Shown here one piece after another: positions 22,522-56,895 of a DNA stretch of 64,000 bases. This DNA comes from a secondary endosymbiont of Heteropsylla cubana. GTDB taxonomy: Bacteria; Pseudomonadota; Gammaproteobacteria; Enterobacterales; Enterobacteriaceae. Numbering within the stretch: the first letter of the stretch is position 1; every line of letters begins with the position of its first letter. Location: the NCBI RefSeq assembly GCF_000287355.1, contig NC_018420.1:930001-994000 (forward strand), given 5' to 3'. Position numbers and translations under genes: made by a program. Under the pieces are notes generated by a model. That model ran no database searches. It was not told the DNA's origin and saw only the letters and a list, made by a program, of their open reading frames with translations.

Positions 22522-23193
22522 ATGGATATTTTAAAAGAATTGTTACAAGCACTCTGGCAACAAGATTTTGAAACACTCTCTAATCCAAATGTGGCTTGGG
22601 CTATTTACATTTTAGTCTTTGTTATTCTGTTTTTAGAAAATGGTTTTTTACCTGCAGCATTCCTTCCTGGTGATAGTTTACTTATATTTCTAGGTGTATT
22701 GATTGCTAAAGGGACGCTAAATTTCACCTTAGTTTTATTACTGCTTACGATCGCTGCAAGCCTGGGTAGTTGGATAAGTTATCTGCAAGGAAAATTATTA
22801 GAGAACAATCGAATTGTAAATAATTGGCTTGCTCATTTACCAGAACACTACCATCAAAAAGCAAATCGGATATTCTATCGACACGGATTATCGGCTTTAC
22901 TTATCGGACGCTTTATTGCTTTCGTCCGAACTTTACTGCCAACTATTGCCGGATTATCGAGTCCAAGTAATGCGCGATTTCAATATTTTAATTGGATTAG
23001 TGCTTTTCTTTGGGTGTTTATCTTAACACTCATTGGATTTTTAATTGGTAAAACAACTGTTTTTCAGTTTTATGAAGAAGAATTGATGCTATGTTTAATG
23101 TTGCTTCCGTTAAGTTTGTTAACAATAGGGTTAATAAGTTCATTAATTGTTATATGGCGCAAAAAAAAACTTATTGAGTTTAAAAAAAAATAA
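22522..23193 (+). CDS. yqjA: YqjA, DedA-family inner-membrane protein
   Basis: 223 aa (E. coli YqjA 220). DedA-family membrane protein needed for proton-motive-force homeostasis and envelope integrity; the family is linked to lipid flipping. The opening (LLQALWQQDFETL) and LENGFLPAAFLPGDSLL match YqjA better than YghB or DedA. The family motif block GRFIAFVRTLLPTIAGLS and downstream NARFQYFNWISAFLW are intact. About four hydrophobic segments are visible, near residues 25-50, 55-85, 150-175 and 185-210. The tail WRKKKLIEFKKK is cytoplasmic-type basic. It stands alone; yqjB and exuR, its usual neighbours, are absent. E. coli needs YqjA or YghB for normal division, and no yghB is visible in the window. 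Confidence 0.92.
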   Translation: MDILKELLQALWQQDFETLSNPNVAWAIYILVFVILFLENGFLPAAFLPGDSLLIFLGVLIAKGTLNFTLVLLLLTIAASLGSWISYLQGKLLENNRIVNNWLAHLPEHYHQKANRIFYRHGLSALLIGRFIAFVRTLLPTIAGLSSPSNARFQYFNWISAFLWVFILTLIGFLIGKTTVFQFYEEELMLCLMLLPLSLLTIGLISSLIVIWRKKKLIEFKKK

Positions 23194-29565: not shown

Positions 29566-30284
29566 TATAAATATTTTTCAAACATTAAATCCCTGACATC
29601 ATAACCTAAATGATGAGCACGTTGTTCAAATTTAGTGGGAAATCGAGTTATAGGTCGAGGTACATAATCACCTGTAACTGATAAATTTCGAAAAAAAGAA
29701 AAACAGGAAATTACTTTTAATATATGTTCAGCATAAGATTTACAATCAGTTGCTATATGAACAATACCCCCTAAGGCAAGTTTATTGCCAATAAGATCAA
29801 TAAATGAAGGTTGTATGATACGACGTTTATTATGCCTAGCCTTATGCCAAGGATCTGGAAAAAATATCTGTACTAATGATAAAGACCCGGAAGGAATCAT
29901 ATCTTCTAATACTTCTACTGCATCGTGACATATGAGACGTAAGTTATAAATATTTCTTTCTTTAGTACTAGCAAGGCAAGAACCGACACCCGGTAAGTAT
30001 ACTTCAACACCAATAAAGTTGTACTCTGGATATGCTGCAGCCATCTCCACTAATGAGCTTCCCATCCCAAAACCGATCTCAAGTATAATAGGCGCTATGC
30101 GGTCAAATAGTTTTTGTAAATTAAGCGGATAAATCTGATAGGGTGTTCCAATTACTGGAAAAAGATTAACTAACGCATATTTTTGCCTTTTTGTGAGTCG
30201 ACCTTGACGACGTCTAAAAGTATGAATCCTCCGTATTGCGTATCCTTGTTTATCAAACTTAACAGAAACAACATTGTTTATCAT
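29565..30284 (-). CDS. trmB: TrmB, tRNA (guanine-N7-)-methyltransferase
   Basis: 239 aa from the ATG at 30284, exactly the E. coli length; the in-frame ATG at 30317 adds an unrelated hydrophobic leader. TrmB makes m7G46 in many tRNAs using SAM. The SAM site EIGFGMGSSLVEMA, the tRNA and catalytic block FFPDPWHKARHNKRRI and the C-terminus TKFEQRAHHLGYDVRDLMFE are conserved. In E. coli trmB is divergent from mutY-yggX-mltC; here that trio lies 24 kb away, so an inversion or translocation has split the locus. Confidence 0.96.
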   Translation of the reverse strand: MINNVVSVKFDKQGYAIRRIHTFRRRQGRLTKRQKYALVNLFPVIGTPYQIYPLNLQKLFDRIAPIILEIGFGMGSSLVEMAAAYPEYNFIGVEVYLPGVGSCLASTKERNIYNLRLICHDAVEVLEDMIPSGSLSLVQIFFPDPWHKARHNKRRIIQPSFIDLIGNKLALGGIVHIATDCKSYAEHILKVISCFSFFRNLSVTGDYVPRPITRFPTKFEQRAHHLGYDVRDLMFEKYL

Positions 30285-49784: not shown

Positions 49785-52189
49785 AATGTAACCCTTAAAA
49801 TTATTTTCTACTATCAAGTAGTTTAAATTTTTATTAATTATATCTTATTTTTTTCTTTTGTCAAAAAATCTTCTTTAAATTTGGCACGAGTTATATATGT
49901 ATAACCAATATTTAAATATTAAACATAAAGTTTTTATTAAAATAAAAAAAACAAATCATTCTCCAATTAAAATTCATCATTTTATTTTATAAAAACATAA
50001 TTTAATGTTACAACAACTATTGTAATTAACGTTTGATTTTTTCAGAACAAAACCCTTAACAATATTACGTTTTTTAATAAACACTATCGTAATTATCCAA
50101 CAATCAACCACTATATGCTTTATTTATTAATTTAAATCTACAGTGATAATAAAATATTCTATTTGAATGTTATTTTTCATCTTGATAAATGAATTTATGA
50201 GGAAAGAAATTACTTCTTTTAAATTCTCATTCATATATAGTATTCATTACTTTAGTATATTGGAGTAATAACTTGTATTTATTTTTCATATTTTAGAATA
50301 AAACGCATTTTTATCCTAGTCATGATTATAGAAATGTTTCTTAACCGTTTTGTATAAACTTTATTTAGAATAAAAAATCTTAACTTTAGTCGTGTTTCTT
50401 ACATAAAACAACTATAATAAACAACCTCATTGATCATATTTTATACGATTTATAGTTAGGTTCTATCTTATTTAAACACACTTCTATCATAGTCTTGCTT
50501 ATGTTGATATTTGATAATATTATTAAACTTTTTTGTGTTCAACGACGAAGCTATAAATCTGATTTATACTGATCATTTATATTAATTTTAATTTTTTTCT
50601 AATTTTCTTTTTCGCAGGAAATTAGAAAGCAATCTTAATTTCACCTCTGATTTAAATTAAATTCATTAGTAGTAATTTTGTTTTTTTACATTAGGTATTT
50701 TAGATGATAAAATATTTATTGCACTTGCTTGTTTAGGTAAAATATTTTGCCATGATTAGAAGCTTTAAAATAAATGAAAATAAGAAATTATTTAGTAATG
50801 AAGTTACTTTAAATCAATATCTTTAAAAAATAAAGACATATCGACGTATAAAATGTATTGGTAAACACATAAAATATTATCAACATCCAAATTTACCACT
50901 TAAGCTTTCAAGTATCACCATACTTAGTTTTCACTCAGCAATGTAAAGAGTTGTTTGATTTTAATTTGTACGTTTATAAATCTTATATTAATTTTTTTAA
51001 TTTAGAGAAGTTTTCTTAATAACATTTTTATATTTTCTAAATAAAAAAAAACAAGTTCTATATTAAATTAACGACTTTCTCATATTAAAGTTGCATGTCT
51101 ATACAATTAAAAACAATCAGAATTGAAGATATGTAAAAACAGATATTTAATAAAAGTATTAAAAATATAAAGCCCCAAGGTGATCGGTACATAATTAAAG
51201 AAAACATCTACAATAGAGTTGTTAGTACTACCTATTGAAAGATTAGTTTTAATCAATATCATTTTAATAATTAATTATATTAACACATAGTTAAAAAAAT
51301 ACTGATTAATAAAAACATTAAACTATGGCTTTTAATATTAACATAAACCGAGTTGAATTAGATTATTATATTTATAATAAAATACAGATGAAATAATTAT
51401 TCTTTTTTTTAAAAGCTATATACTAAAAATATTTGATCGTCCCCAATTATTTCCGTAAATATTTACGGGAAAAATAACCATAATAAAATACTCTACTTAT
51501 AAATACAAAATAATTTCTATTACAAAGTTTACTATTTAACTTAATTTACATACATGAAAAGATTGCTTGTGAGGTTTCTTTAAAATAAAAATATTAAATT
51601 AAGAATTATTACCTACACCATAGATTTCTTTTATTTGCTTTTTATAATTCAGTGAATATATGTTGCATATATGTTATGTATAATTTTTGATTTCTCTTTT
51701 ACGATTTTTTGTTCTTATCATAACAGTAAACTTAAGAAGTTTTCTTGATAACCACGATGGTTTATTAATACATTTTAGGTTTAATACAATATCTCTGACG
51801 TTGTCAAACTGATAGCATCGTTATACTTAAAAAAATTTATATTCTTAATAAAGTGTTTCTATTAGTTAATATATATCTTATGGCAATAGAAAGTCTACAT
51901 TAAGTCTATATATTTTATTGTATACTAATATCATAGATAAAGTTTTATCAGAATTAGAATAATATACTTTATCTGTTTTACTTTAATAGGAACTATTGGT
52001 AATAAACATTAGTGATAAGTATTTTTTCTTTTGCTATCTCAAGAATTTTTGGACTAACACTAATTTCTTTTAAGTTATAACCTAATCTAAGCAACAATGA
52101 CACTGCATGACAACGCATCACACCAAAAAAAATACTTTTACAATAAAGTGCTGGTGTAAAAAACATCATTTACGATTTATTAAAACAGA
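49785..52189. other. 2.4 kb gene desert upstream of rpsT
   Basis: No gene recognised on either strand; ribF and ileS, expected here by E. coli synteny, are not readable. Sequence is A/T homopolymer-rich throughout. Confidence 0.45.
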
Positions 52190-52680
52190 TTAGCAGTCAT
52201 ACATTATTCTACAACTAATCCTTCTATATCAAAGAAAAACAAGCGCTTCCTCTGCTGTACTATGATCTAAACAACCACGGATTAACGCTTGATCTAATCT
52301 ATCATTATATTTAATGCCAACTAGTATAAGAGGATTTCTTTCTAGACGTATAAGAAGGAGTCTGCAAACGCACTTCACCCTGTTGCCATCAATATATCGA
52401 AATGGACGGATTGGAAACTATACAAATTGGAGAACCAAAATCTTTAAAACAATAGCCTCACCACCTTTATCACGACTGATTAATACTTTTGAGAATACCA
52501 TTATTCAAATCTTATACAACTACAAGCATCTCCTCAAGTAAATCTTGACGATCGAAAAAATACAAATAATAACTTATTTACCTCAAAAAGTCAGTCGCTT
52601 TAAATTAAAATTTAAAAATGAAATTATTCGATCTGATCTGTCGTATAAACTATCTCCAAAATGGGTTGTACAATCAGTTA
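52190..52680 (-). pseudogene. dprA: dprA (smf) pseudogene, C-terminal half
   Basis: Frame-hopping on the minus strand gives DprA in order. From about 52535 EEMLVVV, stop, DLNNGILKSINQS (E. coli KGVLVVEAALRSGSLVTARCA), then a frameshift to RDKGGEAIVLKDFGSP (LEQGREVFALPGPIGNP), then ISIYWQQGEVRLQTP (HWLIKQGAILVTEP). A later frame carries a segment matching the C-terminal winged helix, ending AEEALVFLDIEGLVV (PEVVTQLLELELAGWI). Stops and at least three frameshifts are present. DprA loads RecA onto incoming ssDNA in competent bacteria. Neighbours def, fmt and topA-like yrdD are not seen. Confidence 0.75.
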
Positions 52681-54265
52681 TCAGTATTTTTTTTTGGAAG
52701 TCTATTTTAAAAATGTATATTTTTTATGAACAACTTTTAATAAATTAATTAGATAGAAAGAAAAGGTAATTTAATCTTTTTTCATCTTAAATTTATAAAA
52801 ACACACATTATTTCTACCCTACGTATGTCAGTACATTCATTAATGTATATTTATAAAATCCTTTCAATAAATCTCTATTGTTATATTTACGTTAATAACC
52901 AGGTAAAAATTGCTTTTTTTTAAAATTTATTGCTCATAAAAAAGCAATCTCTTTGAACATTTGTCTTTTTATATTTAATTTCTTTCTAATTATTTATCAC
53001 AATACATAGAATCTATGACTCTAGATAACAATCATTATTGTATATTTAAGCGTAGTGAAATTTATTTTTTTGTTTCTTAAAACAGCTGAATTGAAATTAA
53101 ATTAAGTACATAAATTACAATTTAATCTAAATTTTATATTCATTTCGTAATTGTATATTTAACAATTGTATTTAATAAAAATATATCTATTAATTACATT
53201 AAATTTATAGCAAGTATAATAATTAAAATATTATAATATATTTTGTATGTGTATTGGCTAGAATTTGTCTATAATCATAGTATTTTTACTGACGAAACTA
53301 TTATTAAAGCATTAAAGAAAATCATTTACTTTATAAAAGTAATTAAAGATTACTGACCGATCTAATATAAACGTGTGAACAGTTTTATGAAAAATAAAAT
53401 CAATGCTTGATGTCTAGTTAATAAATTGAAGAATTTAATACAAATTAAAATATTTTAATAAATGTTTTGTATAACACTTTAATAATAAATCTAGCTTAAT
53501 GACTAATTTTTAAAATATATCTTTTATAAGATACACTAATTTCTCAATAAATAAATTATTGATTTATTTATTATCTTTTATAGACTATAAATCTAAAAAA
53601 ACCTTATAAATAATTAAATTCTTAAATAACGCATATAAAATCACAATATAAGAAAAATTCTTTTCTTGAATAAAATTCGAATAAAATTATCGCAATATAT
53701 AAAATTTTCTTATTTTTGTAACCTTTAATTAGCAAAAATCACCATATAATGGTGCAGTTTGTCTAATATATTAAAATTAATAGATAATTGAGTAATAATT
53801 TTTTTATAAGAATTACTGTTTTAATAGACAGTATATTTCCACTAATAAACAATGTTAAATTATACAACTATTGTGTTCATAAAAAAATACATCTTGTAAA
53901 ATACAAGTTACTTATATATATTTTAAATATCAATCAAAGAATTGATGATTTCTGGATAATAAAATTACGCTGTATTTCAAAATATATATAAAAATAAATA
54001 ATTTAGTTATTAATTAATTAAAAATTACATGATATAAAAAAAATAAACCATCAAAAGAACATCTCCTTATCCTTCTCATATTTTCATCAGATTGTCTAAA
54101 TACATGATTAAATACCCAAAAGAGTATCTGTATGTTCATCACGATTAATTTAATTAAACTAAAAGCGAATTAATTATGATCAATGATACAAAATATCATA
54201 ATCTATGAAATTATTAAATAAGTTATTAAGTTTATAATTACTTATATAATATGATATAAAATATA
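52681..54265. other. Gene-free AT-rich region before mutY
   Basis: Expected to contain the dprA N-terminal part up to about 53300, but this is unreadable. No other gene recognised. Confidence 0.45.
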
Positions 54266-54296
54266 TTAAGTTATAGTTATAAAATTATAACTTAAT
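54265..54296. repeat. Perfect 11-bp inverted repeat upstream of mutY
   Basis: ATTAAGTTATA (54265-54275) and TATAACTTAAT (54286-54296) with a 10-nt loop, about 100 bp before the mutY start. It could be an operator or an orphan terminator stem; there is no T-run. Confidence 0.45.
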
Positions 54297-54393
54297 TTAT
54301 AAAATCCTAGACTTAAAAGGAGTGGTAATGATTTCAGTTTACACTATATCCCTAACAATAAAGCGTACTTTACAATAAAATTTATGGGTAACA

Positions 54394-55483
54394 ATGTTAT
54401 TTATGAAAAAAATAATACTATTTACAAAATTTATTCTGCATTGGTATCAACAATCCGGAAGAAAAACACTACCTTGGCAAATAGAAAAACCCCATATAAG
54501 GTTTGGTTATCAGAAATTATGTTACAACAAACGCAGGTTAAGACTGTTGTTCCCTATTTCCAACGTTTTATAAGTAGATTTCCTACGGTTCGTGAGCTTG
54601 CAGAAGCTTCGCTCGATGAGGTTTTATATTTATGGACAGGTTTGGGTTATTACGTTCGAGCACATAATTTACATAAAACAGCAAAATTTATTTATGAACA
54701 ACATGAAGGTAAATTTCCAGAAGACTTTGATACCCTCTTTTCTCTACCTGGTATTGGTCTTTCTACAGCAGGCGCAATATTATCGTTAGCATTTGATAAA
54801 CACTACCCTATTCTTGACGGCAATGTCAAGCGAGTTCTCGCTCGATATTACGCCATAGCTGGCTGGCCAGGAAAAAAAGAAATACAACAACGTCTATGGT
54901 GGCATAGCAAACAAGTTACCCCAAAAAAAAAGTTGCGCAATTCAATCAGGCTATGATGGATTTAGGTGCAACCTTATGCACACGCTCTAACCCAAAATGT
55001 GAACAATGCCCACTAAGCATAGGTTGTCAGGCTTATAGTAATCATAATTGGATAGACTATCCAGGTAAAAAACCAAAAAAGACCTTACCAGAAAAAACCG
55101 CTTTATTTTTACTGTTACAAGATACAAATAACCATATATGGCTCGAACAACGTCCACTAAGAAGTATTTGGGGAGGATTATTTTCTTTTCCCCAATTTTA
55201 TGAATTTAAGGAACTATTATGCTGGTTTGACGAACATGATTTACCTATAAATGAACATTTTAAAAAAATGGTACCATTTCGACATAAATTTAGTCATTTT
55301 CAGTTAAATATTGTACCAATATGGTATAAATTTTTTAATAATCAAAGGTGTATACATAAAAAGAATGGACTTTGGTATAACCTAAATCAACCACCTAAAG
55401 TAGGATTAGCAGCGCCAGTAAAAGGATTACTAACTCAACTAACTATATCTAAAAAAAATAACTTATTAGAAATAATAAACTAG
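54394..55483 (+). pseudogene. mutY: mutY, A/G-specific adenine glycosylase, split by two poly(A) frameshifts
   Basis: Together the pieces give a complete MutY (E. coli 350 aa). Starting at ATG 54394 or 54403, frame 1 reads [20 protein letters not shown]. At AAAAACCCC (54485-54493) the frame must shift by -1 to reach [18 protein letters not shown] (catalytic Glu), the HhH motif [11 protein letters not shown] and catalytic Asp in [11 protein letters not shown]. At A9 (54923-54931) a second -1 shift leads to [10 protein letters not shown], the four Fe-S cysteines (C-x6-C-x2-C-x5-C in [17 protein letters not shown]) and the NUDIX-like 8-oxoG-recognition domain. MutY removes A opposite 8-oxoG. It may be a young pseudogene or be rescued by slippage. 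yggX starts 8 nt after the stop. Confidence 0.9.
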
Positions 55484-55491
55484 GAATACTA

Positions 55492-55764
55492 ATGAGTAGA
55501 GTAATTTATTGTATGTTTCTAAAACGTCAAGCAGAAGGGCAACACTTTCAAGTTTACCCTGGGAAAATAGGTAAATTGATTTACGATCATATTTCTAATG
55601 ATGCCTGGGAACAATGGAAAATAAAACAAACAATGATTATAAATCAAAAAAAACTCAGCATGATAAATATTCTTGATCGTAAAACGCTAGAACAAGAAAT
55701 GATCAAATTTCTATTTCAAGATAAAAAACTATATACATATGAAGATGAGCCACACGAGACATAA
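55492..55764 (+). CDS. yggX: YggX, Fe(II)-trafficking protein
   Basis: 90 aa (E. coli 91). Small protein implicated in iron trafficking and protection of Fe-S clusters from oxidation. The motif [23 protein letters not shown] contains the conserved Cys at position 7, and [18 protein letters not shown] is typical. It begins 8 nt after mutY, whose product is an Fe-S protein, and precedes mltC as in E. coli. It is likely co-transcribed with mutY, which would explain why the mutY region has not been erased even though it is frameshifted. Confidence 0.95.
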
Positions 55765-55821: not shown

Positions 55822-56895
55822 ATGAAGAAAAACTTACTCTTACTCATCATTTTTCCATTATTAACGTCTTGCTCTGCTAATAATTACAATAAAAAACATC
55901 AACATCATATCAAAGATATTGATGGTTTTAATATTTTTGTAGGGCAATTTGCTAATAATATTGAAACAATGTGGGGAATAAAGAAAGTGCTAATTGCTAA
56001 ACCTAGAGACTATATAAAATATACCGATCATTATCAAACTCGAATCCATATTAATTTTGATCTTGGCGTTATTAATATTGAAACTATAAATACTGAAAAT
56101 CCTATTGCACGCTTGCGTCAAGCGATTATTAGTACAATATTAATGAGCAAAAATACAGGGATTATGACACTATATGCAGATGCAAGTGACATTCCTATAA
56201 GCAATGAACCTTTTCTTTATGGTCAGGTAGTAGATCAGGATAATCATCCCATCCGATTTGTGTCGCAAGCAGCTAATTTTGCTAATCATTTACTACAGAC
56301 CCGCCTAGAAATCTGCATAACTAATCCACAAAAAATTTGGTCCGTAACTATAAAACTAATTCCAAACCACGTGGATAAACGTGCTAACGAATACTTATCT
56401 ATGGTAAAAAAATCCTCAAGAAAGTATGGCATAGATCAATCCCTTATCTTAGCAATTATCCAGGCAGAATCAAGTTTCAATCCTTATGCTGTGAGTCAAA
56501 CAGAGGCTTTAGGTCTCATGCAAATCATGAAACAAAGTGCTGGTCGAGATGTTTTTAAAATGAAAGGACAATGGGGAGAACCAAGCCGAAGTTACTTATT
56601 GGATCCACAAAACAATATAGATACAGGTACTGCTTATTTAGCTATACTTCAAAACACTTATCTTAGTGGTATTACAAATCCAAAATCACGACATTATGCT
56701 GTGATAACTGCTTATAATAGTGGCGCTGGAAGCGTATTACGAGTCTTTTCACACGATCAAACTGAAGCATTGCAGATTATCAACGGCATGCTACCAGATC
56801 AGGTTTATCAAACACTCACCACACACCATCCCTCGTCAGAATCTCGACGATATCTTTATAAAGTTCATGCTCTACAAAAACATTACCGACGCTGA
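55822..56895 (+). CDS. mltC: MltC, membrane-bound lytic murein transglycosylase C
   Basis: 357 aa (E. coli 359). Outer-membrane lipoprotein that cleaves peptidoglycan with 1,6-anhydro bond formation. Signal peptide [17 protein letters not shown] ends in a lipobox with lipidated Cys17, consistent with the LolCD/LolA system in this window. The N-terminal MltC-specific domain (residues 25-185) includes [10 protein letters not shown]. The SLT domain follows, with catalytic Glu in [25 protein letters not shown], then [16 protein letters not shown] and the [15 protein letters not shown] block. The ATG has no evident Shine-Dalgarno. It is last in the mutY-yggX-mltC cluster; nupG, next in E. coli, is missing. 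Confidence 0.96.

Follow-up and report, generated by a model that had tools for sequence, protein, structure and literature searches.

Single-base frame breaks at poly(A) tracts in mutY, ung and ispE of a secondary endosymbiont of Heteropsylla cubana

Introduction

In the secondary endosymbiont of Heteropsylla cubana, MutY is not encoded by one open frame: the gene is read as three pieces in three frames, separated by two -1 breaks that both fall in runs of A. The locus raises the question of whether this mutY is dead, is still expressed by slippage across its A-runs, or is intact in the cell and misrepresented by the assembly. Poly(A)-tract frameshifts accompanied by transcriptional slippage have reportedly been found in Buchnera and Blochmannia (Tamas 2008 and Wernegreen 2010, as cited in later papers). 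The original prediction for this DNA, made from the letters alone, saw an otherwise complete MutY whose second break lies at a dnaX-type slippery site, and held that break to be possibly tolerable and the first one harder to rescue. Here we compare the locus with its relatives and with the rest of the genome, in which ung (uracil-DNA glycosylase) and ispE carry the same type of break.

Methods

The genome is a single contig of 1,121,596 bases (completeness estimate 99.98%), and the window, that is, the whole 64,000-nucleotide stretch that holds mutY, spans genome bases 930,001-994,000. G+C is about 28% for the genome and 27.9% for the window, and ranges from 25.8 to 35.5% over the first 20 fetched stretches. 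The small size, the base composition and the eroded genes fit an insect symbiont. The sample of this genome comprised 40 genome stretches and the window, 850 kb in total (76% of the 1.12-Mb genome). Fifty-nine relatives were compared, none of which shares the genus and 35 of which share the family (Enterobacteriaceae).

The frameshift screen consisted of tblastn searches of this sample against the open frames of reference genes, which were taken from the reduced relative G015 (820 of its 980 kb), from parts of the larger relatives G004 and G026, from other symbiont-like loci and from named E. coli genes. Such screens depend on the reference genes chosen and are non-exhaustive, as a broken ftsW was missed. 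Two matches in rRNA, which Rfam assigned to 16S and 23S, and opposite-strand matches over mutY were excluded from the count, as were split genes that also carry stops, near 23050, 396614, 424278-424657, 568602-569155, 649969-651595, 821626-821771, 864363 and 969948. A three-frame gene at 1,037,561-1,039,203 was excluded likewise; this plus-strand relative of a 597-codon frame of G015 contains stops, one of its shifts lies at an A8, and a 174-residue piece of it gave no NCBIfam match.

Runs of A or T were counted in 311 of 329 homologous segments (297 kb), the 18 with a mid-gene stop being dropped. For broken runs we used the totals of the frameshift screens (3 and 1) and not the segment count, and the broken genes were entered at the run length that would keep the frame (10, 10 and 11). 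Bounds on neutral divergence are 95th percentiles from simulation.

Results

The three pieces match NCBIfam MutY profiles one after another and together cover nearly the whole model (NF008132, 351 positions), and no decay was seen beyond the two indels, which bears out the view of an otherwise complete MutY (Table 1). Both tracts have the coordinates and lengths given originally, and both breaks do need the same -1 shift, the pieces being read in successive -1 frames: piece 1 ends GAA AAA at the A5, piece 2 runs in the -1 frame to the CCA at the A9, and piece 3 lies again at -1 and reaches its stop at 55483. The frame leading into the A9 reads ACC CCA AAA AAA AAG TTG ... CTA TGA. By comparison with E. 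coli MutY, the most fitting start is ATG 54403, which places 29 residues ahead of the A5, and the frame from ATG 54384 is without the conserved N-terminal GRKTLPWQ stretch, including its PW. A MutY match at E 1e-20 was found in 51 of the 59 relatives and was absent in eight; the matching frame measures 347-516 codons (stop to stop) in 50 of these 51 and 263 codons in one genome that is 49% complete.

The gene order mutY, yggX, mltC is that of E. coli. Upstream of mutY, window positions 49845-54302 form 4.5 kb at 21% G+C without a stop-free run of 100 codons. The gene trmB, a neighbour of mutY in E. coli, is intact on the minus strand at window positions 29574-30284, about 24 kb off. In the relative G010 (0.44-Mb genome), mutY and yggX apparently share one 451-codon open frame (stop to stop), a possible natural fusion.

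Table 1. Features of the mutY locus (window positions) and of the split genes ung and ispE (genome positions).
Feature	Coordinates	Strand	Description
mutY, whole	54403-55483	+	complete apart from two -1 frame breaks
Open frame across A5	54384..54956	+	own ATG 54384 before A5, contains piece 2; residues before A5 outside the MutY frame
mutY piece 1	54403..54489	+	29 codons, ATG 54403, ends ...LPWQIEK; NF008132 positions 6-29
A5 tract, first -1 break	54485..54489	+	G before, C after
mutY piece 2	54492..54923	+	PYKVWLSE... to ...KQVTP; holds catalytic Glu and Asp; NF008132 positions 23-178
A9 tract, second -1 break	54923..54931	+	C before, G after
A AAA AAG heptamer	54926..54932	+	phased for a -1 shift; neither an SD-like nor a structural stimulator found
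TGA ending frame read through A9	54954..54956	+	overlaps ATG ATG (54953-54958) of next frame; possible restart
mutY piece 3	54923..55483	+	Fe-S cysteines and C-terminal domain; NF008132 positions 185-348
yggX, intact	55492..55764	+	next gene after mutY
mltC, intact	55822..56895	+	next gene after yggX
ung	1008258-1008970	minus	-1 break exactly at A10 (1,008,467-1,008,476); no stops
ispE	146320-147167	minus	-1 break exactly at A9 (146,881-146,889); no stops

In an alignment with 36 other MutYs, the translated pieces carry both catalytic residues, Glu and Asp, and all four cysteines of the Fe-S cluster, in agreement with the claim that they survive; the roles of these residues are those in E. coli MutY. 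Among positions invariant in at least 29 of 30 larger-genome relatives, 131 of 144 are kept (12/12 in piece 1, 73/81 in piece 2 and 46/51 in piece 3; one further such position falls at the A5 junction and was masked), and the near-invariant positions reveal no relaxation past either break. The intact small-genome MutYs of G015, G029, G006, G007, G010 and G030 keep 124, 135, 101, 108, 91 and 95 of 145, respectively. The absence of stops bounds neutral divergence at about 3% per site for mutY and at 1.4% for mutY, ung and ispE jointly. Since zero stops set no tighter bound than about 3%, a dead but very young mutY is indistinguishable from a rescued one.

The frameshift screens of the 850 kb returned three stop-free genes split between frames, namely mutY, ung and ispE. 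The pieces of ung and ispE match their families on both sides of the break, and each gene carries a single indel in a long A-run and is otherwise intact, which is untrue of mutY with its second break in an A5. No match to the uracil-glycosylase family other than ung was found in the genome. The HPSPLS motif of Ung, part of the active site, is encoded after the A10 break, so that a truncated Ung should be inactive. A single copy of ispE, as a rule an essential gene, was found, the one in two pieces. IspE acts midway in the MEP pathway, of which dxs, ispG and ispF were found intact in whole-genome searches and ispH in the 850-kb sample; dxr is intact over 299 of 398 residues, where the fetched stretch ends, and ispD gave no match in the 850-kb sample. 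A MEP pathway kept around a broken ispE suggests one of two things, tolerance of the A9 break or an assembly in which the length of this tract is wrong. The A9 break of mutY by itself should therefore not be read as the mark of a dead gene.

The homologous coding segments contain 301, 140 and 40 A/T runs of 7, 8 and 9, and five runs of 10. Three of eight runs with an actual or would-be length of at least 10 are broken, as against none of 481 at 7-9 (Fisher p 3e-6). The lesion of the A9 type thus exceeds chance in this genome, whereas that at the A5 has no such support, being one break set against 583 intact runs of would-be length 6. In a codon-model scan without references, which covered both strands, 51 runs of 9 could be scored, and at 48 of them the frame is the same on both sides. 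Over the 850 kb, run lengths are in excess at 7-8 and fall off a cliff after 8 (1095, 271, 24 and 3 runs of 8, 9, 10 and 11), while the distribution in G015 falls smoothly, with no cliff. This relative makes it less likely that the cliff is due to mutS loss, since it has no mutS match in 820 of its 980 kb yet declines smoothly.

A reference-free scan for split genes (464 kb) gave 16 junctions, which include the mutY A9 but miss the mutY A5 and ung. Two A8 junctions from the reference-free run scan were rejected. That at 582842 joins the end of one gene to the start of the next (presumably panB and panC, as judged by eye) and involves no A-run break, and that at 706440 is a broken ftsW beside a gene that we take to be murG, again not a break at an A-run. 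Weaker flags were raised at 84250, 282235, 448686 and 1002923. The ftsW gene itself, confirmed by family match, lies on the minus strand at about 706440-706890, directly upstream of murG; with two frames and an in-frame stop, it is a decaying cell-division gene.

The proposed resemblance of the second mutY break to the -1 frameshift of E. coli dnaX extends to the heptamer: the same A AAA AAG is present in the same phase, as the original prediction had it. A programmed shift of the dnaX kind was rejected, the stimulators being absent. No SD-like element (AGGA, GGAG or GAGG) was found in the 30 nt upstream of A AAA AAG, and the 70 nt after the heptamer fold no better than their shuffles (z -0.45, 100 shuffles). 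The mutY site differs from that of E. coli dnaX in its longer A-run as well, and a shift here would yield the full-length product and not a short one. RNA-polymerase slippage is the better-documented route across an A9; ribosomal -1 slippage at the heptamer is also possible. The symbiont's own dnaX has a linker (770925-771567) much longer than that of E. coli. It contains three A9 runs and one A10; at every one of these runs a slippery heptamer stands in phase, and the -1 frame meets a stop within 1-6 codons. As judged from these motifs, a shorter DnaX product could arise by slippage in the linker runs. The E. coli dnaX slippery site itself could not be matched in this dnaX, whose linker is expanded.

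The repair background of these breaks includes older decay. The mutS gene (649482-651996) is a relic in several frames, its five alignments, which overlap in part, containing 29 stops. Likewise, mutH (821508-822139) is a relic with stops in several frames; mutL keeps a 761-codon open frame. As the mutS relic is full of stops and mutY, ung and ispE are free of them, mutS decayed long before these three. A mutM/nei-type N-terminal domain was not found at E 0.001 by a search that was positive in 8 of 14 control genomes, E. coli included, and a mutT query gave just a weak match (29%) in the 850-kb sample. The only other HhH-GPD match, at 126,645-127,049, lies within a 217-codon stop-free frame, presumably nth. 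No mutS or mutH match was found in 820 of the 980 kb of G015, which keeps mutY, ung and ispE each in one frame with no stops or breaks. Loss of mismatch repair therefore does not by itself force or explain such breaks.

Discussion

The explanation that we prefer, and to which we give an even chance of being right, is that long A-runs in this genome are unstable and lose single bases, that breaks at A9 and A10 are partly bypassed, and that mutY has recently been damaged and stands at the first step of its loss. Long runs of A are prone to slippage at replication, at transcription and in translation. Replication slippage in a cell without mismatch repair would contract long A-runs by one base, and RNA polymerase, perhaps the ribosome too, would slip on the resulting A9 or A10 and restore the frame in part. 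By such slippage ispE, broken in the DNA, would be functional in the cell. The case of ispE suggests that breaks at A9 and A10 are tolerated, with RNA-polymerase slippage as the probable route. The mutY A9 break alone could be tolerated in the same way, as was originally proposed, given that the genome apparently tolerates the same type of break in ispE. Published work on related systems is partly in line with this. Insertions in Buchnera transcripts fall nearly all in homopolymer runs (151/157; PMC5574713), and insertion is the direction needed for the -1 breaks of mutY, ung and ispE. Corrected transcripts at long poly(A) tracts of Buchnera and Blochmannia genes are put at 12-50%, or at about 30% (PMC5009743, PMC3017870). 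There are counterpoints as well, in that the Buchnera study saw no restored frame (PMC5574713) and that the E. coli polymerase is reported to prefer T-runs to A-runs for slippage (PMC6260861). The same polymerase is reported to need long runs, with 0.062% insertion at one A5 (PMC6260861). This upholds the expectation that the A5 break is the harder one to rescue. Because the A5 is not a slippage-prone run, MutY is probably failing: bypass there would be at trace level only, leaving very little MutY or none, and loss of the gene has probably just begun.

An assembly or sequencing error, in which base calling dropped one A from the long A-runs, with all three genes intact in the cell, is unlikely but is the alternative that we take seriously. 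The three long-run breaks share one direction, that which an under-called homopolymer would give, and they sit in would-be runs of 10 or 11; ispE should moreover be needed, as the inspected MEP genes are intact, and there is a precedent in the 454-sequenced Baumannia, where homopolymer errors led to manual adjustment of 68 predicted genes that were out of frame (PMC4758232). However, the runs of 7-9 are without a single break, three split genes among 311 stop-free segments are unlike the 454 Baumannia, the first mutY break lies in a short run, and clipped tens would give an excess at 9 whereas the excess is at 7-8. We think it improbable that both mutY breaks are bypassed well enough, the A9 by slippage and the A5 by slippage or by a start at 54384, for MutY to work and to be kept by selection. 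Conservation of near-invariant residues on both sides of both breaks without a stop codon would agree with a working enzyme, and with mutM not found, no defence of this kind would be left besides MutY. Bypass of frameshifts in repeats of 3-8 was, furthermore, seen in laboratory drift (PMC3812077). Such a rescue is nevertheless hard to reconcile with two bypass rates that multiply, that of the A5 being very low if the E. coli polymerase is a guide (PMC6260861), and the product begun at ATG 54384 would be without its conserved N-terminal stretch.

It is also doubtful that all three genes are dead and young, with none rescued and the function of ispE replaced by the host or another symbiont. Decay elsewhere in the genome is real, mutS, mutH and ftsW being broken by stops and shifts, and zero stops in three genes together fit a neutral divergence below about 1.4%, but IspE acts mid-pathway and the other MEP genes are intact as far as tested, and for three young deaths all to lie in would-be runs of at least 10 would take a coincidence, if runs of that length were not the hot spots. 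Termination and restart, by which ribosomes arriving at the TGA after the A9 would begin again at the overlapping ATG 54953 and make MutY as two chains, appears very improbable. The ATGA overlap in mutY has a counterpart in ung, whose A10 break is also followed by a TGA overlapping ATG ATG. No such restart was seen right after the ispE break, however, and the cut in MutY would fall before the Fe-S cysteines and inside the catalytic domain; the Met-Met belongs to a conserved QAMMDLG motif, so that the overlap is easily fortuitous, and restart would be no help for the A5 break. A highly speculative further idea is that the A-runs of mutY and ung serve as on/off switches of the mutation rate: without mismatch repair the tracts would often gain or lose an A, the symbiont population would be a mixture with and without the two enzymes that stop the decay of G:C to A:T or T:A, and AT drift would feed itself.

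Frameshifts of the poly(A) kind are already known from Buchnera and Blochmannia, and what is new here is a three-gene case that includes two glycosylases. The likeness lies in an AT-rich reduced genome of the insect-symbiont type and in single-base indels in long A tracts of genes that are otherwise intact. A MEP-pathway gene is hit in both, as dxs is among the eight frameshifted genes of B. vafer (PMC3017870) and ispE is broken in the present genome. The differences are that two of the three broken genes here are DNA glycosylases, that mutY is broken a second time, at an A5, and that the published cases include genes with demonstrated corrected transcripts, whereas the breaks here are seen in the DNA. 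Transcriptional slippage in Thermus dnaX takes place on a run of 9 like that in mutY, with inserted A residues giving other frames (PMC5009743), but two useful products result there, while in mutY slippage would merely offset damage. No report of a set of breaks in mutY, ung and ispE was present among the matches listed in the open-access literature.

The state of the glycosylases can be compared with the reciprocal loss of mutM and mutY in other insect symbionts. Each of six Blochmannia keeps mutM or mutY (PMC4389277), and none of 34 louse Sodalis lineages is without both (PMC11137140). The present genome is like these in that mutM was not found and mutY is the member kept, but differs in that the kept member is broken too, and no such lineage is present in those sets. 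That mutM is also missing counts against the loss of mutY, because the combination is absent from the 34 louse Sodalis (PMC11137140). Elsewhere, some Rickettsia are without both genes (cited in PMC4389277), and in one strain of Baumannia both ung and mutM have been lost (PMC4758232).

Within this genome ispE serves as an internal control, being needed if the pathway runs and carrying the same A9 break as mutY. If the breaks are real, mutS and mutH, and on the tests made here mutM as well, had already gone when MutY and Ung, which hold back the loss of G:C, went out of frame, and the genome would offer a direct view of AT drift and A-run breakage feeding each other during genome shrinkage.
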